The notes beneath the pieces are model-generated. The model was not told where the DNA came from and did no database searches. It saw nothing but the letters and a program-made list of their open reading frames with translations. A program made the translations under genes and the position numbers. Below, piece by piece: positions 4,432 to 16,221 of a DNA stretch of 64,000 bases (position 1 is its first letter; each line of letters starts with the position of its first letter). The stretch is from a virus, in the IMG/VR virus record IMGVR_UViG_3300034122_002202, positions 1 to 64,000 of that record; one strand, 5' to 3'.

Positions 4432-4672
4432 TTGTTTCTACTCCTTCGCATTTGGAAAACGCAAATTCTTGTTCAAGTGCTTTAATTCTCAAGTTTAACA
4501 TATACATATGGATATATGTTTTTCCAAGTAATGTGACTATCTCTTGCAAATTTTTAACCATAGCAGAAAAGCCTTCTTTAGATGGTTCCCAAGATTCATA
4601 CTTGACCTCTGTGCATGAATCGTGCAAAGTCTGAATCATACCTTTAAGTTTTTCTTTAAATTGATCGTTCAT
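4424..4672 (-). CDS. Small hypothetical protein, paralogue of 4049-4261
   Basis: An 82-residue protein carrying the LHDSC(T/R)E-x2-Y motif shared with 4049-4261. AAGGAGAATAATC precedes the ATG. No known domain. Confidence 0.75.
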   Translation of the reverse strand: MNDQFKEKLKGMIQTLHDSCTEVKYESWEPSKEGFSAMVKNLQEIVTLLGKTYIHMYMLNLRIKALEQEFAFSKCEGVETNE

Positions 4673-7543: not shown

Positions 7544-7714
7544 TTAATCCCTCCAGAGGCATAATCTAACGAGGTTTTTGTCTTCTGGAGACACGCCAGC
7601 ATCGTGGAGAATCTTCTTGAGTCGAAGGATTTCTGTGGCTAAGACACCGATATCTAGCTCATTAATCGGGTGTTTTTTCTCTAGTTTTTGTTGATACTTT
7701 ATCGATAGTCTCAT
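7544..7714 (-). CDS. Small hypothetical protein (56 aa)
   Basis: A 56-residue frame (MRLSIKYQQKLEKKHPINEL) with TAGGAG 8 bases before the ATG at 7714. Mostly helical and charged. It is preferred to an overlapping frame at 7399-7602 that lacks a ribosome binding site. Confidence 0.55.
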   Translation of the reverse strand: MRLSIKYQQKLEKKHPINELDIGVLATEILRLKKILHDAGVSPEDKNLVRLCLWRD

Positions 7715-7935
7715 TTTCTATACTCCTAATAGGTAAAAAGCTCATATTCCTGCGGAAAAACACACATTTTGTGTCCATAGTGACCACCAAGGTCAAGAAG
7801 GGTTAAAAAAGGCTTAAAAAGGTGCGAATTTGTGACGATTTGCCACTCAAAAACACCATAAAGCTTATTTTTTGTCCAAATGTATAGTTTTGTATAGTTT
7901 TGTATACTTTTGAAACTTCTTTCCTTCCATACCTC

Positions 7936-7965
7936 ATTATTCGTAATAGGTTCATATTTATTCAA
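7936..7965 (-). promoter_or_regulatory. Left-arm promoter copy 7
   Basis: Boxes at 7936-7941 (AATAAT) and 7960-7965 (TTGAAT). It would give a leader of about 200 nt before the gene at 7544-7714. Confidence 0.7.
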
Positions 7966-8114
7966 ATAAAAATTAAAAATATTCGTTTGAATAAAAATCG
8001 ATTTTTCACGAATACTATAATAGAAGCGTGAGGGTGACCGCCACAAACCCGCCTAGATGCAAGTGCTGATAGGGATCGGGGATGCGGTACGACCACAAAA
8101 AAAAAGATTTTTAG

Positions 8115-8160
8115 AGCCATACCTTGGCGAACCCGCTTAATGTCGCTAAGACAAAGCAGG
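8115..8160 (-). ncRNA. Family A structured element 1
   Basis: On the minus strand a stem pairs CCTGCTT with AAGCGGG around an inner stem TGTC/GACA (loop TTAGC). It is followed by the family A tail, which runs GGGTTCGCCAAGGTATGG. It lies downstream of promoter copy 8. Whether it is an independent RNA, a leader or a terminator is not known. Confidence 0.45.
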
Positions 8161-8199
8161 AAGATCATTTCTCAAGTCGAATCGTATTGGCTATACTTT

Positions 8200-8229
8200 A
8201 TTATTCGTATTAGAACGAAAAATATTCAA
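8200..8229 (-). promoter_or_regulatory. Left-arm promoter copy 8
   Basis: Boxes at 8200-8205 (AATAAT) and 8224-8229 (TTGAAT), immediately beyond the terminator that follows the DUF932 gene. Reads into element A1. Confidence 0.7.
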
Positions 8230-8235
8230 AAGAAA

Positions 8236-8278
8236 AAAGAAAAAAACGCAGAGTGGAGTTAAGGGATCTCCACCCTGC
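8236..8278 (-). terminator. Intrinsic terminator after DUF932 gene
   Basis: On the minus strand an 11-bp stem pairs GCAGGGTGGAG (8268-8278) with CTCCACTCTGC (8248-8258), with one mismatch and a 9-nt loop. A T-rich tract follows. A second hairpin (TCCTGC/GCAGGA) lies between it and the gene. Confidence 0.8.
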
Positions 8279-8368
8279 CTGAGTCCTGCCAGCGAGAGGT
8301 TTGCACCAGCAGGATTGTATTAATAAGGGGATAAGCTGCCCAGTTCTTACCCCCCCATCCAAACCATC

Positions 8369-9502
8369 TTAGGCGAACATAAGTTCTTTGCCCAAGATAG
8401 AGTGAACATCCTTGGTAGTCAAGGCATTAGCTTTGTTTCTCAGGCCGATGAACTCGGATTCTGAATAGCTAGCCAAAGCACCACCAACTTCGTTAAGCTT
8501 CTCCCAAGAGGCTTCACCCATCTTTTGGCTTCCTCTCGTAAGAGAGTTGACCATACCAAAGAGAGTCTTGGCGTAGAATGGAGTTTCTTGGCGTTCAATT
8601 GACCAACCATCTTGAACAGCATCGATCTCTGCCTTAGAGAACTTGTAGGTTTGAGCTACAGAAGCAAAGAGTGGAGTCATCGAAGCACCTTCTCCGAAGA
8701 CCATCTTCTTTGTACCCAACAACTTTTCAATCATAACTGGTATGGATTGAATGTGCTTGGCAATAGAAGACTGTATCTGCCTAGACAAGATATCAAGATC
8801 AACCTTACCTCGATGCACTACGCTAACATCGTCATGTCGTACCCATCCAATCATGCCGTTAGTGCAGATTGTACGGAACACGCCAGCAGAAATGTCCAAG
8901 CGGTGCGTACCGATTTCGCTGTTCTTAATTTTAATCAAGCCACCATAGTCGCTATCATCGTCAGACTTAAGGCTAGCAGGAAGCACAACTGAGAAGTTGA
9001 TGAAGTCATCACCAGACTTATCACACGCCACCGCCTGACCGCATTCTTGTGGCAAGAACTGCTTAGTCTGGTCTAAGACCCAATTGTTATCGATAACTGC
9101 ATACCTATCTGACAAGAAAGCCCTACAGCTATCATCCTGATCATTAAAGCGGAACAACATCTCCTTGCCAAAGTCCTCTTGGAAGCTAATGTCTACCAAG
9201 TCCTTAAGGATAGCTTGGTGCTTGACATTACCAGAGTTATATAACTTGTTTAAGGTGAAACTCCCCCACTTTGTCTTACTAGCCAATTGACTAAGGAAAT
9301 GCTTAGTAGGCTTGTATAGCTTATTAGCTCGCTTGTCGAGAATATGAAACTTCTCGTCTGCGATAACAGCTTTGACCCTTGGATCTTCGCCACCTACGGT
9401 GCATAGTGCATCGTGATAGTGATCTTTGTTTTCGTTATAGCGAGCGATAACGCCAGCGTAAGCACCACCAGTAAAACCACGGACAGATCTAACAGCATTC
9501 AT
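8369..9502 (-). CDS. DUF932-like phage protein (377 aa)
   Basis: Size and layout fit the DUF932 (phage/plasmid-like, TIGR03299-type) family. There is an N-terminal region ending in a YAVIDN-like segment and a central block with ICTNGMIGW, reminiscent of the family's conserved C(T/S)NGM motif. Helices follow that in the family end in a short conserved tail. These proteins are common in phages and plasmids. Their biochemical role is not established, although replication or anti-restriction links have been proposed. The ATG at 9502 follows AGGGAG. Promoter copy 9 drives it and a strong terminator follows, so it appears monocistronic. It is the largest protein of the left arm. Confidence 0.75.
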   Translation of the reverse strand: MNAVRSVRGFTGGAYAGVIARYNENKDHYHDALCTVGGEDPRVKAVIADEKFHILDKRANKLYKPTKHFLSQLASKTKWGSFTLNKLYNSGNVKHQAILKDLVDISFQEDFGKEMLFRFNDQDDSCRAFLSDRYAVIDNNWVLDQTKQFLPQECGQAVACDKSGDDFINFSVVLPASLKSDDDSDYGGLIKIKNSEIGTHRLDISAGVFRTICTNGMIGWVRHDDVSVVHRGKVDLDILSRQIQSSIAKHIQSIPVMIEKLLGTKKMVFGEGASMTPLFASVAQTYKFSKAEIDAVQDGWSIERQETPFYAKTLFGMVNSLTRGSQKMGEASWEKLNEVGGALASYSESEFIGLRNKANALTTKDVHSILGKELMFA

Positions 9503-9561
9503 AATAAACTCCCTGTGACTGTGTCACTATTAGTTAAAAATTTAAAACCTCTTACTACTAC

Positions 9562-9591
9562 ATTATTCGTACAAACACGAATTTTATTCAA
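9562..9591 (-). promoter_or_regulatory. Left-arm promoter copy 9
   Basis: Boxes at 9562-9567 (AATAAT) and 9586-9591 (TTGAAT); drives the DUF932-like gene. Its -35 TGA is the stop of the upstream gene. Confidence 0.75.
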
Positions 9592-9773
9592 CTACATTTT
9601 AAAAATCTTGGTTTTTTAGTTACAAGATTTCCATTCTCCCAAGCTCTACCTTCTGGAATTACTTGCCAGTCTTGGCCATCCACTGTAAATGTACCGCCAA
9701 ATACTGACCATGTTCCCTCATCTTTGGATTCCTGCCAAAGCCTTAACAACTCAACTTTAGTTTCTTCGTTCAT
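9588..9773 (-). CDS. Small hypothetical protein (61 aa)
   Basis: Unrecognised protein (MNEETKVELLRLWQESKDEG) with a C-terminal Trp/Gly-rich part. AGGGAG site; overlaps the upstream stop by four bases and ends in the -35 box of promoter copy 9. Confidence 0.7.
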   Translation of the reverse strand: MNEETKVELLRLWQESKDEGTWSVFGGTFTVDGQDWQVIPEGRAWENGNLVTKKPRFLKCS

Positions 9774-10126
9774 TCTGTACTCCCTATTTCATAGTTATCG
9801 CCCCAATGAACATACCCATCTTTCTTGAGCATATGGAAGACTTCAGCGTAATAGATATTATGCCAGTTGAAATCCATAGCCCCACAAGCTTCGATATACT
9901 CTTCGTAAAATTCGGTCATATCTATGTAATCATAGACCGCATCGTAAATGGTATTCTGTAGAACCTCATTATCGCTATCAATTTTGCCAAGTACTTCCAA
10001 ACCATATCTCAGAGCCAATCTACCTCCGAAATGCTCAGCAAGCAGGAATAAATCGCTTTCTGGTGGCTTCTCGTAAGGTTTATCCTTGATCTCTGGCAGA
10101 CTTCCTAGCTTATCGTAACTTCTCAT
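9770..10126 (-). CDS. Hypothetical protein (118 aa)
   Basis: Unrecognised acidic protein rich in Tyr (EFYEEYIEACGAMDFNWHNI). AAGGAG before the ATG. Confidence 0.7.
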   Translation of the reverse strand: MRSYDKLGSLPEIKDKPYEKPPESDLFLLAEHFGGRLALRYGLEVLGKIDSDNEVLQNTIYDAVYDYIDMTEFYEEYIEACGAMDFNWHNIYYAEVFHMLKKDGYVHWGDNYEIGSTE

Positions 10127-10137
10127 AGCTACTCTCC

Positions 10138-10404
10138 TTAGTTAGTAAAAACAAATAACGCATCATCTCCAACCCAACTGCCAACCATATCGCCTTCCCA
10201 CTTCAACTTCTCTGCGAAAAGCCTTGCAGCGTTTGCAAAGTTTTCCTTATATTCCAACTCGTAATCCCAACCAATGGTGAGGTTAGGTTGACGATTTTGC
10301 ATTTTACCGTTACCCAATCTGCACTTAAGGCGTTTGCCCTTTGTATCGGTAATAGGTAGAACCTTAACGAAAATAGTAGCACCACCAACAAACTTAATAG
10401 TCAT
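10138..10404 (-). CDS. Hypothetical protein (88 aa)
   Basis: Unrecognised protein (MTIKFVGGATIFVKVLPITD). The ATG at 10404 is chosen because an earlier ATG in another frame is followed directly by a stop; AAGGAG lies 8 bases upstream. Driven by promoter copy 10. Confidence 0.65.
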   Translation of the reverse strand: MTIKFVGGATIFVKVLPITDTKGKRLKCRLGNGKMQNRQPNLTIGWDYELEYKENFANAARLFAEKLKWEGDMVGSWVGDDALFVFTN

Positions 10405-10425
10405 TTCACATTCTCCTTGTATATA

Positions 10426-10455
10426 GTTATTCGTTAGAACTCCAAATTTATTCAC
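10426..10455 (-). promoter_or_regulatory. Left-arm promoter copy 10
   Basis: Boxes at 10426-10431 (AATAAC) and 10450-10455 (GTGAAT). It starts directly after the stop codon of the upstream gene. Confidence 0.65.
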
Positions 10456-10590
10456 TTACATTTCAAATTTTTTCACAAGTTCTCGATAAAGAAAATCGTA
10501 ATCTTCTTGCCTTATCTCATTAGCCATCAACTTATCATCCAATCTATCAACAGCTTTTTCAAATCTCACTTCTTTTTCTTGTTCGCTCAT
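10456..10590 (-). CDS. Small charged protein (44 aa)
   Basis: The start at 10590 (MSEQEKEVRFEKAVDRLDDK) follows AAAGGAG. The protein is entirely helical in character and highly charged. Unrecognised. It is preceded by the first A-site-promoter-B-site-promoter cassette. Confidence 0.65.
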   Translation of the reverse strand: MSEQEKEVRFEKAVDRLDDKLMANEIRQEDYDFLYRELVKKFEM

Positions 10591-10627
10591 CTCATCTCCT
10601 TTGTTTGTTGTGTCCTTCTCATACTTT

Positions 10628-10657
10628 ATTATTCGTACGAACATGATTTTTATTCAA
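10628..10657 (-). promoter_or_regulatory. Left-arm promoter copy 11
   Basis: Boxes at 10628-10633 and 10652-10657; drives the 44-aa gene. A palindromic upstream site begins 21 bp beyond the -35 box. Confidence 0.75.
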
Positions 10658-10678
10658 AAGATTTTTAAAATATTTTTT

Positions 10679-10696
10679 GTAATACTAAGTATTACC
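10679..10696. promoter_or_regulatory. Upstream site 1 (perfect palindrome)
   Basis: GTAATAC-TAA-GTATTAC plus a final C: a perfect 7-bp inverted repeat around TAA. It lies 21 bp upstream of the -35 box of promoter copy 11. Probable protein-binding site. Confidence 0.6.
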
Positions 10697-10703
10697 AGAA
10701 AAG

Positions 10704-10765
10704 CTATAGGCGTTCCGCATCCCCTATCCCTCTCCCGATACCAGAGAGGCGGGTTGTTTTACATC
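10704..10765 (-). ncRNA. Family B structured element 1
   Basis: On the minus strand a CCTCTC/GAGAGG hairpin is followed by a G-rich tail GGGATAGGGGATGCGG. It lies between promoter copies 12 and 11. It is the most divergent B member. Confidence 0.4.
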
Positions 10766-10816
10766 GGCCCTCCCGATTTTTTTCAAGTTTTAGATTCTTG
10801 TTTTCCTTTCTATACT

Positions 10817-10846
10817 ATTATTCGTTTGAACTTGAAAATTATTCAA
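10817..10846 (-). promoter_or_regulatory. Left-arm promoter copy 12
   Basis: Boxes at 10817-10822 and 10841-10846; reads into element B1. The upstream site begins 20 bp beyond the -35 box. Confidence 0.75.
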
Positions 10847-10866
10847 AAAAATCTTTTTATTTTATT

Positions 10867-10885
10867 GGTATAACAAAGTATAACC
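10867..10885. promoter_or_regulatory. Upstream site 2
   Basis: GGTATAACAAAGTATAACC, 20 bp upstream of the -35 box of promoter copy 12. Confidence 0.6.
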
Positions 10886-10924
10886 ATTTTTGGCTTTGGT
10901 GGTATGGGTAATCCGCTTGCTATT

Positions 10925-10970
10925 CGGGCATTACTTCGGGAACTCCGGTGGTATCCATAGGACACCGCCA
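10925..10970 (-). ncRNA. Family A structured element 2
   Basis: On the minus strand GGTGTCC and GGATACC form a 7-bp stem with loop TAT, flanked by GGC/GCC-type pairing. The family A tail GGAGTTCCCGAAGTAATGCC follows. Confidence 0.45.
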
Positions 10971-10975
10971 GATTA

Positions 10976-11187
10976 AAATTTAACTTTTTTGTTCATTGGA
11001 TAAAAGTTATAAACCAATTTCGCAATCTTTTCAGATTTCTCTTGACAGGTTTTTAACCCCATCAGTATAATTGTCTAGCAGAGGGATTTACTCTCACTTT
11101 TATTAAAAGCCTATCCTATCTCCAAATAGGTTAAAAATAATCTCCATCTGTAAGAGTTCTGTACTTGAGCAAAGATAAGAATAAATA
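10976..11187. other. Gene-free stretch with a plus-strand promoter
   Basis: I see no gene here. The only clear signal is the near-consensus sigma-70 promoter on the plus strand at 11042-11071. Confidence 0.4.
11042..11071 (+). promoter_or_regulatory. Near-consensus sigma-70 promoter, plus strand
   Basis: Perfect TTGACA (11042-11047) and perfect TATAAT (11066-11071) with an 18-bp spacer. It points right, against every gene in this arm, so its product would be antisense to the genes at 11188-11611 or a short RNA. Confidence 0.5.
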
Positions 11188-11382
11188 CTATACATTATCA
11201 CATTCCTCCAATAAAAAGTATTCTGGTACTGGTTCAAGTTCTTGCTTACCAAAGTGAAGCTTAATCCATAATTCTTTGATGTCTGCTTCCTTATAGAAAT
11301 GACCATCTTGTTTATCTAAACTTAATCTAATCAAAGAATGTTCAATCAATCTTTTCTCTGCATTACTTACTTCAATAATCAT
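11188..11382 (-). CDS. Small hypothetical protein (64 aa)
   Basis: Unrecognised protein starting MIIEVSNAEKRLIEHSLIRL at 11382, after TGGAGG. The ATG overlaps the TGA of the 26-aa membrane peptide (ATGA). Confidence 0.65.
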   Translation of the reverse strand: MIIEVSNAEKRLIEHSLIRLSLDKQDGHFYKEADIKELWIKLHFGKQELEPVPEYFLLEECDNV

Positions 11383-11459
11383 TGATCTACCTCCATAAAT
11401 ATCTTTATAAACAAAACCATAGACACATTTAAAAGAAAGCTTGCTGCGATTAATTCCAT
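11379..11459 (-). CDS. Tiny membrane peptide (26 aa)
   Basis: ATG at 11459 after AAGGAAGG encodes MELIAASFLLNVSMVLFIKI plus FMEVDQ, a single hydrophobic helix. It is coupled to both neighbours: its start follows the stop of 11459-11611 and its stop overlaps the next start. Phage micro-proteins of this type often act on host membranes, but no function can be inferred. Confidence 0.5.
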   Translation of the reverse strand: MELIAASFLLNVSMVLFIKIFMEVDQ

Positions 11460-11611
11460 TAAGCACCTTCCTTTATTAGTTTTAATTTTTCGCCCTGTCT
11501 GCCACCCTTGACAGACTTCTTTTTTGATTTGAATACCACCATGCCCCTTGGCGTTTCGCCCCTACGCTCGAAGGGCATATTTACTAATGTAAACCGAATA
11601 GTCCTGCTCAT
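11459..11611 (-). CDS. Small basic protein (50 aa)
   Basis: A 50-residue frame (MSRTIRFTLVNMPFERRGET) with a strongly basic C-terminal half (FKSKKKSVKGGRQGEKLKL). AAGGAG before the ATG at 11611; driven by promoter copy 13. A nucleic-acid-binding role is possible but unproven. Confidence 0.6.
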   Translation of the reverse strand: MSRTIRFTLVNMPFERRGETPRGMVVFKSKKKSVKGGRQGEKLKLIKEGA

Positions 11612-11631
11612 CGTACTTCTCCTTGTAAATT

Positions 11632-11661
11632 ATTATTCGTACAAACACACAATTTATTCAA
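11632..11661 (-). promoter_or_regulatory. Left-arm promoter copy 13
   Basis: Boxes at 11632-11637 and 11656-11661; drives 11459-11611, the membrane peptide and 11188-11382. Confidence 0.75.
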
Positions 11662-11671
11662 AACTTTTTTA

Positions 11672-12019
11672 CTAATCCCGATCATATCTACTTGGTTTAC
11701 GCATAGCATTGCCATGCTCATGAATGAAATCATCAATGCCTTGTGCTTCTTCGTTCTCAAACTCTCTATCTTCAAGCATTTTTGCTACTGCTTGACAACC
11801 ATCTAAGATCCTACAGTGTAAGTAGTTAGGATAAAGCCCAGTGTGACTATCTACATACCATCCCCATTCAAACTTTTCTTCCCATGATGTAACTTTGAAA
11901 GTATTCGACTTCGTGTCATAATCAACGCCCACATTATATTCCCTGCCATTAAGCAGGAGTGGTGGCATATGCTTGCGAAACTCGGCAAAATTCTCAACTT
12001 CGTGAATGATACTGGACAT
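11672..12019 (-). CDS. Hypothetical protein (115 aa)
   Basis: Unrecognised protein (MSSIIHEVENFAEFRKHMPP). The ATG at 12019 follows GGAGAAAG. The middle is rich in Trp and Tyr (KFEWGWYVDSHTGLYPNYLH). Confidence 0.7.
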   Translation of the reverse strand: MSSIIHEVENFAEFRKHMPPLLLNGREYNVGVDYDTKSNTFKVTSWEEKFEWGWYVDSHTGLYPNYLHCRILDGCQAVAKMLEDREFENEEAQGIDDFIHEHGNAMRKPSRYDRD

Positions 12020-12054
12020 TTTTCTTTCTCCGTTAGTGTTAGTTCTCATATCTT

Positions 12055-12084
12055 ATTATTCGTACAAACTTACTTTTTATTCAA
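12055..12084 (-). promoter_or_regulatory. Left-arm promoter copy 14
   Basis: Boxes at 12055-12060 and 12079-12084; drives 11672-12019. Confidence 0.75.
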
Positions 12085-12101
12085 AAAAATCTTTTTTATT
12101 T

Positions 12102-12272
12102 TTACCACCCTTGGCACTCTTCTTGCCTATCTTGTATTACCTTGCAATACTCTTGAGCTTCCTCCAAAGATTTAAACTCTTCCTCAATTTCCTCAATTTC
12201 CATCGTTTCAACGATCCAGTGACCACCAGCATCGTAATTCGCTAAAGCCCAATCGTAAATTTCTTTCCCCAT
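12102..12272 (-). CDS. Small acidic protein (56 aa)
   Basis: MGKEIYDWALANYDAGGHWI, then an acidic helix. ATG at 12272 after AAGGAAAG. The pattern (W-A-L-A-N-Y-D-A-G-G-H-W) is distinctive but not assigned. It is preceded by the second complete regulatory cassette. Confidence 0.65.
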   Translation of the reverse strand: MGKEIYDWALANYDAGGHWIVETMEIEEIEEEFKSLEEAQEYCKVIQDRQEECQGW

Positions 12273-12313
12273 CGTTCTTTCCTTTTCGTTAGTGTTGTTG
12301 TCTTCCATACTCT

Positions 12314-12343
12314 ATTATTCGTTTGAACTCTAAAATTATTCAA
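12314..12343 (-). promoter_or_regulatory. Left-arm promoter copy 15
   Basis: Boxes at 12314-12319 and 12338-12343; drives 12102-12272. Upstream site begins 21 bp beyond the -35 box. Confidence 0.75.
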
Positions 12344-12364
12344 AAGTTTTTTAAATTATTTTTA

Positions 12365-12382
12365 ATTATACTAAGTTATACC
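12365..12382. promoter_or_regulatory. Upstream site 3
   Basis: ATTATACTAAGTTATACC, 21 bp upstream of the -35 box of promoter copy 15. Confidence 0.6.
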
Positions 12383-12397
12383 TAATTTTATAAGTCC

Positions 12398-12436
12398 AGC
12401 CTCCCCCCATCCCCCCTAGATATTTCTCTAGGAGGC
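12398..12436 (-). ncRNA. Family B structured element 2
   Basis: Minus strand: hairpin CCTAGA/TCTAGG, then GGGGGGATGGGGGGAGGC. An outer GCCTCC/GGAGGC pairing is also possible. Lies between promoter copies 16 and 15. Confidence 0.5.
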
Positions 12437-12470
12437 AAGCTTATTTTGTATCGATCCTTCTCGATATTAT

Positions 12471-12500
12471 ATTATTCGTTTGAAACGCAAAATTATTCAA
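12471..12500 (-). promoter_or_regulatory. Left-arm promoter copy 16
   Basis: Boxes at 12471-12476 and 12495-12500; reads into element B2. Upstream site begins 18 bp beyond the -35 box. Confidence 0.75.
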
Positions 12501-12518
12501 AAAAAAATTAAAATAATT

Positions 12519-12536
12519 GGTATAACAAAGTATAAC
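12519..12536. promoter_or_regulatory. Upstream site 4
   Basis: GGTATAACAAAGTATAAC, 18 bp upstream of the -35 box of promoter copy 16; nearly identical to site 2. Confidence 0.6.
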
Positions 12537-12576
12537 TTTGCAAGCTTTTTGGCAGGGCAAAGACGCTTGCTAGCAA

Positions 12577-12630
12577 GGCATACCATCAGGAACCTCGGTG
12601 GTGTCCATAGGACACACCAAGCTTTTTTTT
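12577..12630 (-). ncRNA. Family A structured element 3
   Basis: Minus strand: GTGTCC/GGACAC stem with loop TAT, then the family A tail GAGGTTCCTGATGGTATGCC. Read on the plus strand, the hairpin is followed by eight T residues (12623-12630), so it could also be a plus-strand intrinsic terminator. Confidence 0.45.
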
Positions 12631-12734
12631 AAAGACTACTTTTTTCGTTTTCGGTATCTCACCGTGGTTTGCCCCTTAAAGTAGTAAACAGACCTATCGT
12701 TTAAACTTAATACATTTTTCTTTCCCTCTTGTTG

Positions 12735-12980
12735 TTATATTATATTATTCGTACTAGGCCCGATATTATTCAAAAAATAATCCCAATTCTTTTTAAAATC
12801 TGTATGCAGATATCGCATACAAGTTTGGGCAATGTTACGATATCCAACAATTTTGGCAACAACCTTTACTCTTGCCATATTGCATACCTTGCAATAGTGG
12901 CGTTGAAATATGTTTCCATCATCATCGGTATCTTGCCCTAGATTTTGCCACTTACCATGATTGCAATTCTTAACCTTCAT
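12735..12980 (-). CDS. Small putative zinc-finger protein (81 aa)
   Basis: The N-terminal half carries C6, H8, H28, C30 and C33 in the arrangement C-x-H ... R-H-Y-C-K-V-C, which could bind one zinc ion. ATG at 12980 after AAGGAAAG. Its last codons are formed by promoter copy 17, so coding and promoter sequence overlap. Probably cotranscribed with the gene at 13017-13700. Confidence 0.65.
   Translation of the reverse strand: MKVKNCNHGKWQNLGQDTDDDGNIFQRHYCKVCNMARVKVVAKIVGYRNIAQTCMRYLHTDFKKNWDYFLNNIGPSTNNII
12744..12773 (-). promoter_or_regulatory. Left-arm promoter copy 17
   Basis: Boxes at 12744-12749 and 12768-12773, lying inside the 3' end of the gene at 12735-12980. Reads into element A3. 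Confidence 0.7.
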
Positions 12981-13016
12981 TTTACTTTCCTTTTCTTTAT
13001 GGTCACAATATGTGAC

Positions 13017-13700
13017 CTAGTGATAGATATAGGCCACATTGTTGACATTCTTATCCCAACATTTACGGCAATCGTTGCAGTTTACCTTGCTTGCACCATT
13101 GAAAGCTTCAAGGCTTGCAGGGCAAATATTCTCATGACGATCATCGGCATTAACTGGTGTTCTTATTGCAGTGCTTGTGGGCAATCCTAGCCCCTTGCTA
13201 GGCACTTGATCGACCATGTACATACTTGGCCTAACTGTAAAATTCTTGGCAAATTCGCCATGTATAGCTAAGTATTCCCGAACCATGCCATGTTCTTTAG
13301 TTGGTAACCAGAATTTAACTTCTGGCAGGGCAAGAGCAATCTCATTCATTGCCACTAACATATCTAGACTTTGAACATCGCCACTTGTAAACCACCTAAA
13401 GTATGCATTAGACTTATCTTTCATGTGCTTATATTTCTTGGCTAGTGCTTTAATAAAAGCTTGCTTCCAAGACTCCAAGTCTTCTAGTTGACCTATCCTA
13501 ACATCATCGGCTTTTTTCTTGTTGCCAAAAAGGTATCTACCTTTAAGGGCATAACATCCCTCACATATACTACCCTTAACATCGACTAGCTTGCTTCCAG
13601 TCTTGCATTGTTTAGCTGGTAAATCCCAACTAATCCAAGGCATTTTTTCAGTTTGTGAGAAATTTATTTCTAATGGCTTGATAACTTCTAAACTTATCAT
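13017..13700 (-). CDS. GP88-like Cys-containing phage protein (227 aa)
   Basis: The layout resembles the phage Gene product 88 (GP88) family. An early tryptophan-containing motif (MPWISWDLPAKQC) is followed by a C-x2-CYA motif (SICEGCYALKGRY), a central RWFTSGDVQSLDML segment, and a C-terminal Cys cluster (C-x2-C-x2-C, NCNDCRKCW). The cysteines suggest a bound metal or Fe-S cluster. The biochemical role of the family is not established. AAGGAAAG precedes the ATG and promoter copy 18 drives it. The family assignment is from memory of the motifs and is moderately sure. Confidence 0.6.
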   Translation of the reverse strand: MISLEVIKPLEINFSQTEKMPWISWDLPAKQCKTGSKLVDVKGSICEGCYALKGRYLFGNKKKADDVRIGQLEDLESWKQAFIKALAKKYKHMKDKSNAYFRWFTSGDVQSLDMLVAMNEIALALPEVKFWLPTKEHGMVREYLAIHGEFAKNFTVRPSMYMVDQVPSKGLGLPTSTAIRTPVNADDRHENICPASLEAFNGASKVNCNDCRKCWDKNVNNVAYIYH

Positions 13701-13737
13701 CTTACTTTCCTTGTGTTAGTGTTACTTGCTATACTCT

Positions 13738-13767
13738 ATTATTCGTTTCAACTTTCAAATTATTCAA
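13738..13767 (-). promoter_or_regulatory. Left-arm promoter copy 18
   Basis: Boxes at 13738-13743 and 13762-13767; drives the GP88-like gene. The TGA in its -35 box ends the upstream gene. Confidence 0.75.
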
Positions 13768-13958
13768 AACTTTTCACAATTATTTTCAAATTCTTCAAGT
13801 AGTGCTTGCTCACATTCAAACTTATCGATCATCCTTGAAGTTAATTCTTCAAGATCAAATTCTTCAATTTCTTGACAAGTAGTTGGCATAAGCACTTCCC
13901 AGTTGGGTTCAATATTTTCATCATCGATCACAATTTCAAAATCAGAATCATCATTCAT
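13764..13958 (-). CDS. Small very acidic protein (64 aa)
   Basis: MNDDSDFEIVIDDENIEPNW and a helical, Glu-rich C-terminus. Strong negative charge suggests a DNA-mimic or inhibitor type protein, but this is only an inference. AAGGAAAAG before the ATG. Preceded by the third regulatory cassette. Confidence 0.65.
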   Translation of the reverse strand: MNDDSDFEIVIDDENIEPNWEVLMPTTCQEIEEFDLEELTSRMIDKFECEQALLEEFENNCEKF

Positions 13959-14001
13959 TTTACTTTTCCTTTTCTCTAGTGTTAGTTATCCCTTATACTC
14001 T

Positions 14002-14031
14002 ATTATTCGTTTTAACTTACAATTTATTCAA
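14002..14031 (-). promoter_or_regulatory. Left-arm promoter copy 19
   Basis: Boxes at 14002-14007 and 14026-14031; drives 13764-13958. Upstream site begins 30 bp beyond the -35 box. Confidence 0.75.
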
Positions 14032-14061
14032 ATAAAAATAAAATTATTTTAAATATATTTA

Positions 14062-14079
14062 GTAATACTAAATTATACC
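14062..14079. promoter_or_regulatory. Upstream site 5
   Basis: GTAATACTAAATTATACC, 30 bp upstream of the -35 box of promoter copy 19. Confidence 0.6.
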
Positions 14080-14090
14080 AAATTAAATTA

Positions 14091-14134
14091 GGGCAGGCTC
14101 CCCCCATCCTCCCTTAGTTGTTCACTAGGGGAGA
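14091..14134 (-). ncRNA. Family B structured element 3
   Basis: Minus strand: a 10-bp stem CTCCCCTAGT/ACTAAGGGAG with one mismatch and a 5-nt loop, then GATGGGGGGAGCCTG, matching element B2. Lies between promoter copies 20 and 19. Confidence 0.5.
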
Positions 14135-14171
14135 AGATTTTTATTAGGTTAATCTCCAACCTCTCTATAGT

Positions 14172-14201
14172 ATTATTCGTTTAAACTGTAAAATTATTCA
14201 A
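14172..14201 (-). promoter_or_regulatory. Left-arm promoter copy 20
   Basis: Boxes at 14172-14177 and 14196-14201; reads into element B3. Upstream site begins 28 bp beyond the -35 box. Confidence 0.75.
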
Positions 14202-14229
14202 ATAAAAATAAAAATATTTTGAGATAATT

Positions 14230-14248
14230 AGTATAACAAAGTAATACC
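14230..14248. promoter_or_regulatory. Upstream site 6
   Basis: AGTATAACAAAGTAATACC, 28 bp upstream of the -35 box of promoter copy 20. Confidence 0.6.
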
Positions 14249-14269
14249 AATTTTTGCTTTGATAGTAGT

Positions 14270-14288
14270 GGTAATACAAAGTAATACC
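14270..14288. promoter_or_regulatory. Upstream site 7 (second copy in the same region)
   Basis: GGTAATACAAAGTAATACC, 40 bp beyond site 6, i.e. about four helical turns. It overlaps the tail of element A4. Confidence 0.5.
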
Positions 14289-14332
14289 TCGGTAAGCCCG
14301 CTAGTCTTGGTAAGACTTGCAGGTTTTTTTTT
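14280..14332 (-). ncRNA. Family A structured element 4
   Basis: Minus strand: CCTGC-A-AGTCTT pairs with AAGACT-A-GCGGG around loop ACC, then GCTTACCGAGGTATTACC. On the plus strand the stem is followed by nine T residues (14324-14332), so a plus-strand terminator is an alternative reading. GC-rich hairpins continue to about 14390. Confidence 0.5.
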
Positions 14333-14397
14333 CTTGGCCTATCGGCCGGGCTTTCTCTTCGAGAAATCCATCGAGGGGCTTTCGCCCCCCTTCTTTC

Positions 14398-14490
14398 TTA
14401 TTTGTTCATATAGGCTATCGCCTGATATAAACAGCTTGAATACACAATCAGGCCAAACAAGAGTAGCATATTCATTTGTTCAATGGACAT
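14398..14490 (-). CDS. Tiny membrane peptide (30 aa)
   Basis: ATG at 14490, four bases after the stop of the gene at 14494-14685, preceded by a GAGGGGGG tract. It encodes MSIEQMNMLLLFGLIVYSSC and a short tail, one hydrophobic helix. Coupled to the upstream gene. Function unknown. Confidence 0.45.
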   Translation of the reverse strand: MSIEQMNMLLLFGLIVYSSCLYQAIAYMNK

Positions 14491-14493
14491 GGC

Positions 14494-14685
14494 TTATGCC
14501 CCCCTCTTGGCTAATTCAGCCTTGTAAACACTAATCTGATCATAGTATTTATTAGGGTTGATGTTAAGCTTGATACATTCCCGACAATCGTCAATACTAT
14601 ATCGCAAGGATGCTACTGTCATGGCCTTGGCCTTTTTAGCTTCCACCAACCAATTGCAAACAAAGGGATCATAACTATTATTCAT
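14494..14685 (-). CDS. Small hypothetical protein (63 aa)
   Basis: MNNSYDPFVCNWLVEAKKAK, helical, with four Cys in total. The ATG at 14685 follows GGAGAGTAGTAAG. Driven by promoter copy 21. Confidence 0.6.
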   Translation of the reverse strand: MNNSYDPFVCNWLVEAKKAKAMTVASLRYSIDDCRECIKLNINPNKYYDQISVYKAELAKRGA

Positions 14686-14728
14686 CTTACTACTCTCCAT
14701 GTTAATGGTTAAACTCTCTTGCTATACT

Positions 14729-14758
14729 ATTATTCGTAACAATCACAACTTTATTCAA
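14729..14758 (-). promoter_or_regulatory. Left-arm promoter copy 21
   Basis: Boxes at 14729-14734 and 14753-14758; drives 14494-14685 and the membrane peptide. Confidence 0.75.
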
Positions 14759-14778
14759 AAAAAACTTTTTTTATTTTA

Positions 14779-15030
14779 TTAGTCGTGGATTACTCCATCG
14801 ACTATATACCTTAGACTATAAGCCGATATCGTTTTTTCTCCATGATGGTTACCTTCATTGTATGATACTAATATATAGTATCCATTCTTAGACTTAGCTA
14901 TTCGCTCTAGTGTACCGAACCTAAATCCATCTACTTTACTATCGGCTTGACTATACTTATTAATGCTTATTCGCTTACCGATATTTTCAGAAAAAACGCC
15001 CGATACAGTACCATTTTCAATCTTAATCAT
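14779..15030 (-). CDS. Small hypothetical protein (83 aa)
   Basis: MIKIENGTVSGVFSENIGKR, probably a small beta-barrel by composition (regular Gly, Val, Ile, Tyr). AAAGGAT site; promoter copy 22. Unrecognised. Confidence 0.65.
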   Translation of the reverse strand: MIKIENGTVSGVFSENIGKRISINKYSQADSKVDGFRFGTLERIAKSKNGYYILVSYNEGNHHGEKTISAYSLRYIVDGVIHD

Positions 15031-15088
15031 CTTATCTATCCTTTACTTTTTATCCTTAAGGTTTAACATTGTGTTTCCCTTATGCTAT

Positions 15089-15118
15089 ATTATTCGTTTA
15101 AACTTAGAATTTATTCAA
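15089..15118 (-). promoter_or_regulatory. Left-arm promoter copy 22
   Basis: Boxes at 15089-15094 and 15113-15118; drives 14779-15030. Confidence 0.75.
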
Positions 15119-15145
15119 AACAATTTCAAAATATTTTAAAAATCT

Positions 15146-15167
15146 ATTAAGATAAACATATCCAATT
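15146..15167. repeat. 22-bp repeat, copy 1 of 2
   Basis: ATTAAGATAAACATATCC plus AATT; recurs with one mismatch at 15582-15603. In both places it lies between a family A element and the next promoter. Confidence 0.6.
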
Positions 15168-15181
15168 AGACTATGGGGTAT

Positions 15182-15227
15182 GGGCATACCTTCCCCAAGC
15201 CGACTATCTTGGTTAAGACAGTGGGTT
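15182..15227 (-). ncRNA. Family A structured element 5
   Basis: Minus strand: CTGTCTT/AAGATAG stem with loop AACC, then GGCTTGGGGAAGGTATGCCC. Confidence 0.5.
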
Positions 15228-15251
15228 CTCATTTGGTCTTGGCCTCTTGGC

Positions 15252-15428
15252 CTATATCTTTTTTTCGTATTCATAAAACTTTTCGTACTCTCTAATAATT
15301 TCTTCTTGCTTAACAGGAAATCCATATGCAGCCCTTAATACATGGGTTTTTCTACGATCCGAAAAGTGATTATGAAACGCACAAAGACCAATGCCAGCAG
15401 CCAAAACTCGCATATTAAATTCTTCCAT
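15252..15428 (-). CDS. Small hypothetical protein (58 aa)
   Basis: MEEFNMRVLAAGIGLCAFHN, then a charged helix (QEEIIREYEKFYEYEKKI). AGGGGA before the ATG at 15428. It is preferred to an overlapping frame at 15104-15325 without a ribosome binding site. Driven by promoter copy 23. Confidence 0.6.
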   Translation of the reverse strand: MEEFNMRVLAAGIGLCAFHNHFSDRRKTHVLRAAYGFPVKQEEIIREYEKFYEYEKKI

Positions 15429-15472
15429 TTTACCATCCCCTTTTTTCTAGTGTTGTTTCCCTTACCTATCAT

Positions 15473-15502
15473 ATTATTCGTTGTAACTTAGAATTTATTC
15501 AA
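15473..15502 (-). promoter_or_regulatory. Left-arm promoter copy 23
   Basis: Boxes at 15473-15478 and 15497-15502; drives 15252-15428. Upstream site begins 29 bp beyond the -35 box. Confidence 0.75.
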
Positions 15503-15531
15503 AATAAAATAAAAATAAATAAAAGAATTTT

Positions 15532-15550
15532 GGTATTACCTTGTTATACC
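15532..15550. promoter_or_regulatory. Upstream site 8
   Basis: GGTATTACCTTGTTATACC, a near palindrome, 29 bp upstream of the -35 box of promoter copy 23. Confidence 0.6.
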
Positions 15551-15581
15551 TAATTGGCATTGATAGTATAGGTAAGACAAT

Positions 15582-15603
15582 ATTAAGATAAAAATATCCA
15601 ATT
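15582..15603. repeat. 22-bp repeat, copy 2 of 2
   Basis: One mismatch to 15146-15167. Confidence 0.6.
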
Positions 15604-15627
15604 CAAATCAGCCGATCTTAGCCTATA

Positions 15628-15672
15628 GGCGTACCTTCCCTAAGCCCAGTGACTTTGGTAAGACACTAGGTT
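15628..15672 (-). ncRNA. Family A structured element 6
   Basis: Minus strand: AGTG-T-CTT pairs with AAG-T-CACT around loop ACCA. The tail GGGCTTAGGGAAGGTACGCC follows. Stem bases differ from A4 and A5 but pairing is kept. Confidence 0.5.
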
Positions 15673-15682
15673 ATTTTAAATA

Positions 15683-15706
15683 CCCCCTAGCTATTCGACT
15701 AGGGGG
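15683..15706 (-). terminator. Hairpin terminator after the sigma-like gene
   Basis: Perfect 8-bp stem CCCCCTAG/CTAGGGGG with an 8-nt loop, 14 bp after the stop of 15721-16221. The following tract (TATTT) is only weakly T-rich. Confidence 0.55.
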
Positions 15707-15720
15707 CTTGACTACCTTGC

Positions 15721-16221
15721 CTAGCTTGCCATCTTTGCGATGGCCTTGGCATGTAAACCGAAAGCACTCCCTTGGCTAATATCCAGTTTGCGAGCAATTT
15801 CATCGAAGTTATATCCCTTCGATCTTAAGGCCAAGATATTGTGTTCTGTAAAGTCGATAATACCAGCATCGTAAGCATCTCGAAGATGGAAAGTTAAAAC
15901 TTCCATTGTATTAGTAGGTCGGCCTTGCAATTCAATATTATTACCATTTTCAGAATCTTCGAACTTGGTAATAGTAACTGTTTTACCTTGACGCTTATTT
16001 GTATTCAAACGCCTATTTTCGTCAATAAGAATATTCTTAAAACAAGGGTATAAAATAGTATTAAACTTATTACCAAGACTAGGGTTGAAAAGTTCATTGG
16101 CCTTGGTAACGGACATAATAGCTAAATCTTCAAAATCGGTATAACCAAGGCGTTTGGCCTTACGGCTTAACTTGTCGATGCTAGCATAAAATAATTCTAC
16201 TGAAATTTTCAATTCGCTCAT
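15721..16221 (-). CDS. Sigma-70-like factor, left arm (166 aa)
   Basis: Residues about 24-72 resemble sigma region 2 (YTDFEDLAIMSVTKANELF, then KFNTILYPCFKNILIDENRR, the typical pattern before an N-x-LID-x2-R helix). Residues about 120-165 resemble a region 4 helix-turn-helix (TEHNILALRSKGYNFDEIAR, then KLDISQGSAFGLHAKAI). The protein is shorter than ECF sigma factors but has both halves. It is the first gene of the left arm, next to 23 uniform promoters, so it may direct RNA polymerase to them (inference). AAGGAAAAG precedes the ATG. Its own promoter region has a TATTATTCG box but no matching -35. A hairpin terminator follows. Confidence 0.7.
   Translation of the reverse strand: MSELKISVELFYASIDKLSRKAKRLGYTDFEDLAIMSVTKANELFNPSLGNKFNTILYPCFKNILIDENRRLNTNKRQGKTVTITKFEDSENGNNIELQGRPTNTMEVLTFHLRDAYDAGIIDFTEHNILALRSKGYNFDEIARKLDISQGSAFGLHAKAIAKMAS

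Follow-up and report, generated by a model that had tools for sequence, protein, structure and literature searches.

A putative small structured RNA with a conserved G-rich tail, present in several copies in a large environmental phage and related viruses

The virus record IMGVR_UViG_3300034122_002202 is 141,809 bases long, and because its first and last 127 bases are identical it probably represents a circular genome, complete at about 141.7 kb. We studied the part of it from position 1 to 64,000 (hereafter, the window), in which a small element that we call B occurs in several copies and appears to encode a structured RNA. Family searches with 10 proteins of the record identified a terminase and proteins of the DUF932 and GP88 families, together with two that resemble sigma factors, of which one scores above its Pfam cut-off and the other just below. 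Many genes on the minus strand from 7 to 16 kb have a recurring promoter-like sequence, TTGAATAA-n13-ACGAATAATA, ahead of them. At three of these sites (14201, 12500, and 10846, minus strand), what comes next is no ordinary gene: it is a G-rich B element, and a further site serving the next gene lies 139, 126, and 158 bases away, respectively. The promoter-like sites contain the direct repeat GAATAA at a spacing of 21 bases, and a gene for an extracytoplasmic function (ECF)-like sigma factor, just below the Pfam cut-off, lies nearby at 15721-16221; together these suggest a phage sigma factor or activator.

By comparison among copies, B consists of a 5′ hairpin (P1), a linker rich in A, a strand pairing back into the loop of P1 as an H-type pseudoknot, a second hairpin (P2), and the G-rich tail, which comes in two types. 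Copy w14 (type I; 14098..14162, minus strand) has P1 AGGUU/AACCU, pseudoknot GGAGAU/AUCUUC, a P2 hairpin, and the tail GAUGGGGGGAG, and begins 8 bases after a promoter-like site at 14171..14201 without mismatches to the consensus. Copy w12 (type I; 12401..12465, minus strand) begins 4 bases after an equally perfect site at 12470..12500 and divides into P1 (12465-12450), the A-rich linker (12449-12441), the pseudoknot strand (12440-12436), P2 (12435-12412), and the tail GATGGGGGGAG (12411-12401). Copy w10 (type II; 10710..10777, minus strand), with P1 AUCGG/CCGAU, pseudoknot GGG/CCC, P2 CCUCUC/GAGAGG, and the tail GAUAGGGGAUGCGGAACG, stands 38 bases from its site at 10816..10846, again with no mismatches. 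A weaker type II copy, w8, lies on the plus strand (8026..8092), 8 bases after a site at 7987..8017 with two mismatches, and is convergent with an element of a second structured type, A, on the minus strand. It has a P1 of three pairs and the tail GATCGGGGATGCGGTACG, and its assignment rests on the promoter-like site, the pseudoknot GGGU/ACCC, the P2 hairpin CCUA/UAGG, and the tail motif GGGGAUGCGG.

The initial annotation had described three stems followed by a G-rich tract, and stems with such tracts are indeed found at 14098-14162, 12401-12465, and 10710-10777 on the minus strand; the one at 10.7 kb, however, carries GATAGGGGATGCGGAACG and not GGATGGGGGG, which makes it a second tail subtype of the same family. 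The conserved 5′ hairpin and pseudoknot were absent from that description. Its remark that two of the tracts are nearly the same was borne out, since GGATGGGGGGAG is common to 12401-12412 and 14098-14109 and occurs nowhere else in the record. Exact copies of GGATGGGGGG number three in the window (8351, 12403, and 14100, minus strand) against 0.03 expected, a count reached by none of 100 dinucleotide shuffles. With one mismatch allowed, the same three places are in line with chance (1.46 expected; three or more in 17 of 100 shuffles). Similarly, GGGGATGCGG is found twice, at 10715 (minus) and 8078 (plus), against 0.01 expected.

The same annotation had placed a related tract after the DUF932 gene, near 8351. 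The sequence GGATGGGGGG is present there, but we rejected it as a member of the B family, as no promoter-like site lies ahead of it and it sits in the 3′ untranslated region of DUF932, where its Gs pair, as judged by eye, within a GGGGTAAG/CTTATCCCC stem. Among relatives of the virus (numbered loci with the prefix L), this tract is kept in L011, L013, L040, and L041, is replaced by GTAAGGGGGGG in L051 and L053, and falls in a part that L050 lacks. The untranslated region itself (8242-8365, minus strand) contains several stems and a terminator by eye, and has a sub-threshold Rfam match to BjrC80 (32.2 bits against a cut-off of 80).

A megablast search of the first 25,000 bases against 50,697 phage records gave no match, the best match of the cassette to named phages had an E-value of 0.08, and terminase matches were 23-29% identical. 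GP88 relatives in named phages (16 records) were below 40% identity among the 15 matches listed, and these phages infect several alphaproteobacteria and Acinetobacter. Closer relatives were collected in three ways. A search with the promoter pattern gave no matches in genome contigs and 12 stretches in eight viral contigs. The GP88 protein led to eight contigs, seven of them also in the promoter-collected set and one more distant (L044, whose GP88 protein is 70% identical to that of the window). Further contigs came through tail patterns, which returned 24 stretches, seven within this phage group; 13 of the 17 stretches outside the group were inspected by eye and showed no B scaffold, and L052 also has none. 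Both L008 and L004 carry TCGGATAATA promoter-like sites.

Across these relatives the two tails recur with little change. The type I tail, RAUGGGGGGAG, is found for example in w14, w12, L005, L009, L011, L021, L044, and L049, with a deviating form, AAAGGGGAGAG, in L008 at 1701-1768. The type II tail, GGGGAUGCGGAACG, is found for example in w10, L021, L044 (twice), L050, and L051, and with one change in w8. In L051, a w14-like copy has the tail AUGGGCGGGGG and an altered pseudoknot loop and strand that still pair with each other, and two B elements stand in tandem with a diverged promoter-like sequence before each, as seen by eye. The three clusters of the window are found in L044 in unchanged order even though the L044 promoters have diverged.

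Evidence for a folded RNA comes from an alignment of nine type-I copies, made without w14, with a structure of 16 pairs. In it, 95.8% of the 142 cells are paired, compared with 25-53% in slid versions, and six of the 16 pairs have changed on both sides, which one of 500 shuffles equals; on four of five measures, 0 to 1 of 500 shuffles do as well. Two other alignments were excluded from these counts, one (A1) with w14 misplaced and one (A3) with P1 misplaced in several type II copies. Beyond the alignment, the P1 arms are fully complementary in 19 listed elements (3-5 pairs, G-U allowed), and the pseudoknot is formed by AAG/CUU, AAGG/CCUU, GGAGAU/AUCUUC, GGGGAU/AUCCUC, GGGG/CCUC, GGG/CCC, or GGGU/ACCC (G-U allowed). 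The degree to which loops match their own strands is reached by six of 20,000 permutations over 11 distinct classes, although these classes share descent and the counts therefore overstate independence. In 16 elements the two arms of P2 pair at 109 of 115 positions, whereas swapped arms pair at 188 of 250; in all three of these comparisons the arms were picked by eye. Taken together, compensatory changes among the copies support P1, the pseudoknot, and P2 as parts of a probable RNA fold. The tail behaves differently, keeping its sequence largely intact while the stems vary in sequence and stay paired, and this supports the view of it as a conserved functional part of an RNA.

An alternative stem, P3, in which a C-rich strand pairs with the tail (GCCUCC/GGAGGC), belongs to the minimum-energy fold of w12. 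It pairs in 81.5% of cells and has no pair changed on both sides, for which reason P2 was preferred. A canonical G-quadruplex (four runs of at least three Gs with loops of 1-7) was found in none of 12 elements, while a weaker rule with runs of two Gs is satisfied by 11 of the 12.

A covariance model, R1, was built from the nine-copy alignment, with the 14.1 and 10.7 kb copies left out. On its own record, at an E-value of up to 1, it gave three matches: 12395-12465, where w12 is part of the seed, and 10713-10777 (4.3e-6) and 14092-14162 (7.4e-5), which correspond to w10 and w14, outside the seed. At this threshold w8 (8026-8092, plus strand) was not reported. Among records reached through the loci, R1 matched 12 of 12 and then two of three (one repeated), or 13 of 14 distinct records, a figure that is partly circular given that some of the records were collected by tail pattern. 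Free of that circularity, R1 matched seven of the eight records collected by promoter alone, the exception being a 17.9 kb record, and found B in all eight collected by the GP88 protein, seven of which overlap with the promoter set.

We think that this large environmental phage and its relatives harbor one small structured RNA in several copies, represented in the window by three elements and probably also by w8, that is made as a standalone transcript and uses its tail as a contact surface; we give this reading somewhat better than an even chance. The combination of conserved, covarying structure and predicted promoter-like sites of its own is what a phage-encoded small RNA might be expected to show, and B probably acts as a regulatory RNA during infection. 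It looks standalone because the window copies have promoter-like sites, the genes after the minus-strand copies have another, the L051 elements stand in tandem, and w8 faces no gene. The tail is the likely contact surface because it keeps its sequence and the stems keep only their pairing. A transcript from the phage-type promoter-like site would begin B 4-38 bases downstream and would be separate from the leader of the next gene; the pseudoknot may cap and stabilize its 5′ end and present the tail.

Several observations weigh against this reading, as do the start codons in the tails that are taken up below. The number of further pair types in the nine-copy alignment is ordinary (396 of 500 shuffles are as high), pairs 7-29 and 8-28 are each broken in one of nine copies and the P2 pair 33-52 in three of nine, and the pseudoknot of most type-I copies has only three pairs. 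All B copies come from one related phage group, such that the changes are not fully independent, and the copy in cluster 1 differs in type between the window (type I) and L044 (type II). Folding of single copies is ordinary for three of the four window elements (z of -0.6 to -1.5), with w12 at -3.8. Read-through from B into the next gene is possible, given that on the minus strand a terminator-like site marks the 3′ end of w14 alone.

Nor did a partner for the tail emerge from the phage itself. Outside the elements and the 8351 tract, the record contains no exact 10- or 12-base tail complement, and the proposal that the tail pairs with pyrimidine-rich phage RNA therefore finds no good support. 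Every occurrence of CCCCCCATCC and CTCCCCCCATCC in the record is the complement of an element or of the 8351 tract, and CCGCATCCCC is there solely as the complement of the two type II tails. The 8-base CCCCCATC has three additional sites, at 33619 (minus), 36951 (plus), and 43711 (plus), so a short match in transcripts of the late region is possible. Pairing between B and neighboring A elements, tried for 23 pairs, was no better than with shuffled A (11 to 88 of 100 shuffles were as strong).

B does not correspond to known RNA families that we compared. A search with 4227 Rfam 15 families at the gathering cut-off found only a transfer RNA in the window, and at E-values of up to 5 nothing overlapped the B elements, either in window positions 7700-16200 or in L044. 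H-type pseudoknot riboswitches of the preQ1-I type resemble B in that a hairpin loop pairs beyond an A-rich linker; in B, however, a second hairpin and a tail follow, and the next gene has a separate promoter-like site. Phage-encoded small regulatory RNAs in general, the subject of a review (PMC12197685), are the closest kind in that B is short, has a promoter-like site of its own, and sits among small, tightly spaced phage genes. B, which is predicted from sequence, differs in the pseudoknot, hairpin, and G-rich tail shared by three to four copies and in having no Rfam match. The vrRNAs of VIPR systems (PMC13142463), which go with a linked Vipr RAMP protein, are intergenic phage RNAs of about 100 nucleotides, several per phage, whose structure may hold a pseudoknot, all of which recalls B. 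They carry 9-16 YNNGG repeats, though, with the structured part as a 3′ tail, whereas the structure of B is 5′ of its tail, and runs of at least four YNNGG repeats are absent from both strands of the 141,809-base record. The titles and opening lines of abstracts returned by literature searches do not describe the B family, which is no proof of its absence from print.

Since no exact 10-base tail complement was found outside the elements and the 8351 tract, duplexes between A and B are at the level of chance, and VIPR-like repeats are absent, a protein is the leading candidate for the partner. In the favored reading of B as a standalone structured RNA, the tail would contact one partner common to the copies, for which a protein of host or phage is a likelier candidate than an mRNA of the phage, and the presence of the same tail on different stems in several copies might provide a higher dose or serve two related partners. 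A fuller version of this idea, in which the small RNA is capped by an H-type pseudoknot and presents its G-rich tail to a host protein, either as a decoy for a defence system or as a switch in host RNA metabolism, is tentative and, taken whole, rather doubtful. It would make B the first known member of its class, with two tail isoforms carried in cassettes alongside the structured RNA A, a shared promoter type, and mostly a 3′ repeat. To our knowledge, structured RNAs of large environmental phages are poorly catalogued, and B is directly supported by covariation, occurs in several copies per genome in a fixed layout, and comes with a model that can be used for searches. Were B transcribed and bound by a host protein, it would be a short RNA tool, open to testing, with which a phage acts on its host.

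Among the other explanations, the one that survives best is that B is a cis-acting leader, lying at the 5′ end of the next gene's mRNA and controlling its translation, decay, or premature termination. The conserved order of the three clusters in L044 would fit such a role, as would the fact that clusters 1 and 3 there precede the same genes as in the window (by eye) and that w12 and w10 lack a clear terminator. On the other hand, cluster 2 precedes a different small gene in L044 than in the window (by eye), and in the window a separate promoter-like site intervenes between B and the start codon of the next gene. The tandem copies in L051 do not suit a leader, and w8, on the plus strand, faces a minus-strand A element and the 3′ end of DUF932 with no gene start. 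We consider a leader unlikely.

A second possibility is that B is a micropeptide gene or translated leader, in which an AUG in the tail opens a short frame and purines in P2 and the G-tract bind the ribosome. We read 25 of 26 elements, 24 of them to a stop codon and L049 to the end of its locus, excluding L050 7222-7292 for a mismatch to the tail pattern. The tail contains an ATG in 22, a GTG or TTG in two, and no start codon in one, which leaves a short peptide possible and lowered our confidence in the standalone RNA slightly. The frames run for 4 to 37 codons from ATG, and for 42 and 47 from GTG and TTG; a stricter count of open reading frames ending inside a stretch of 101-113 bases, which misses longer frames, finds none in seven of 12 elements. 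Most type I copies would begin MGG(G/A)(W/C).. and most type II copies MRNA(Y/H).F.., and some differences are silent, as in the w14-like copy of L051, with two synonymous tail changes (GGG to GGC and GGA to GGG), and in L008 at 3584, with GCT for GCC. However, both the length and the residues of the frame vary, the type-I copy at L008 40-110 stops after four codons, a start codon is missing from L008 1701-1768, and several of the differences among type II copies change the encoded residue (AGC, GCC, TGC, and ATC at one codon). In most copies, moreover, the G-run abuts the AUG rather than lying 5-9 bases upstream, and the compensatory changes in the stems would need a separate cause. A translated product therefore strikes us as distinctly unlikely.

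The ToxI antitoxin RNA, which binds and inhibits a ToxN-like RNase, is a pseudoknot that occurs as tandem repeats, and B might be an RNA decoy against host defence, similar to phage RNAs that mimic ToxI. The likeness lies in the small H-type pseudoknot, seen in B through loop and strand covariation by comparison, with its A-rich linker and its several copies. Yet the pseudoknots of B are single and lie in separate units (in the window, one for each promoter-like site) that also contain a hairpin and a G-rich tail, and B has neither ToxI-style tandem repeats nor, at E-values of up to 5, an Rfam match at its elements. Phage escape from ToxIN by RNA mimicry has been reported (PMC3475682). ToxN was not found in the phage by a PF13958 search whose control also gave no match, and such a toxin would in any case be encoded by the host. 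We regard a ToxI-like decoy as improbable.

B might also be a 3′-end or insulator element, with hairpins and a repeat that stop or block transcription between tightly packed promoters. Some 15-20 bases past the tails lies GTATAAC-TTA-GTATAAC or a variant, as GTATAATTTAGTATTAC after w14 (14062..14078), GTATAACTTAGTATAAT after w12 (12365..12381), and GTAATACTTAGTATTAC after w10 (10679..10695), all on the minus strand. Blocks of this kind are found in eight places, all in or after A or B elements and several on both strands, and elsewhere in the whole record once, weakly, the pattern having been derived from those same eight places. A scan of the minus strand for terminators (a G+C-rich hairpin with a T-run behind it) picked out 14106-14089, at w14, and nothing terminator-like at w12 or w10, and no such repeat block was found behind w8 or behind the A elements at 15.2 and 8.2 kb. 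Because the structure directly follows a promoter-like site and a pseudoknot has no role in termination, an insulator seems quite improbable to us. Least probable is an R-loop replication origin on the pattern of ColE1 RNA II and the T4 origins, in which a promoter and a structured RNA bearing a G-tract precede AT-rich DNA, for although 79-base stretches of 81-90% A+T follow the tails of w14, w12, and w10, the DNA ahead of promoter-like sites is AT-rich in general (by eye), type II tails are G-poor, several origins within 6 kb would be odd, and the extremes of cumulative GC skew, which gene orientation confounds, lie at the end of the record and near 79 kb.

The second structured element, A, lies ahead of each minus-strand B copy and elsewhere in the region, and is also present in L044 and L051. 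By eye, A elements occupy 14230-14395, 12525-12660, 10880-11000, 15140-15250, 15560-15700, and 8100-8200 on the minus strand, and each would have an outer stem enclosing a GUCUUACCAAGAC-like hairpin, followed by GGUAUGCC. Between the promoter-like site at 12773 and an A element, a Met-Tyr-stop mini-open reading frame and a stem region lie at 12600-12743 (minus strand), where relatives differ in a compensatory way by eye (CUACUUU/AAAGUAG versus CUGCUUU/AAAGCAG). In L044, positions 4440-4497 (plus strand), upstream of a small gene, have a sub-threshold Rfam match to the DUF2815 RNA (30.5 bits against a cut-off of 41.2).

The plus strand bears a perfect match to the sigma-70 promoter consensus, TTGACA-18-TATAAT, at 11042-11071, within the block of minus-strand genes, and a terminator-like hairpin comes after it at 11081-11095. 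By eye, TTGACA-18-TATAAT is unchanged at this place in L044, and L051 reads TTGACA with TAAAAT. Farther along the window, positions 28218-48474 encode long collagen-like proteins with GxQGxQG and SPSPTP repeats.

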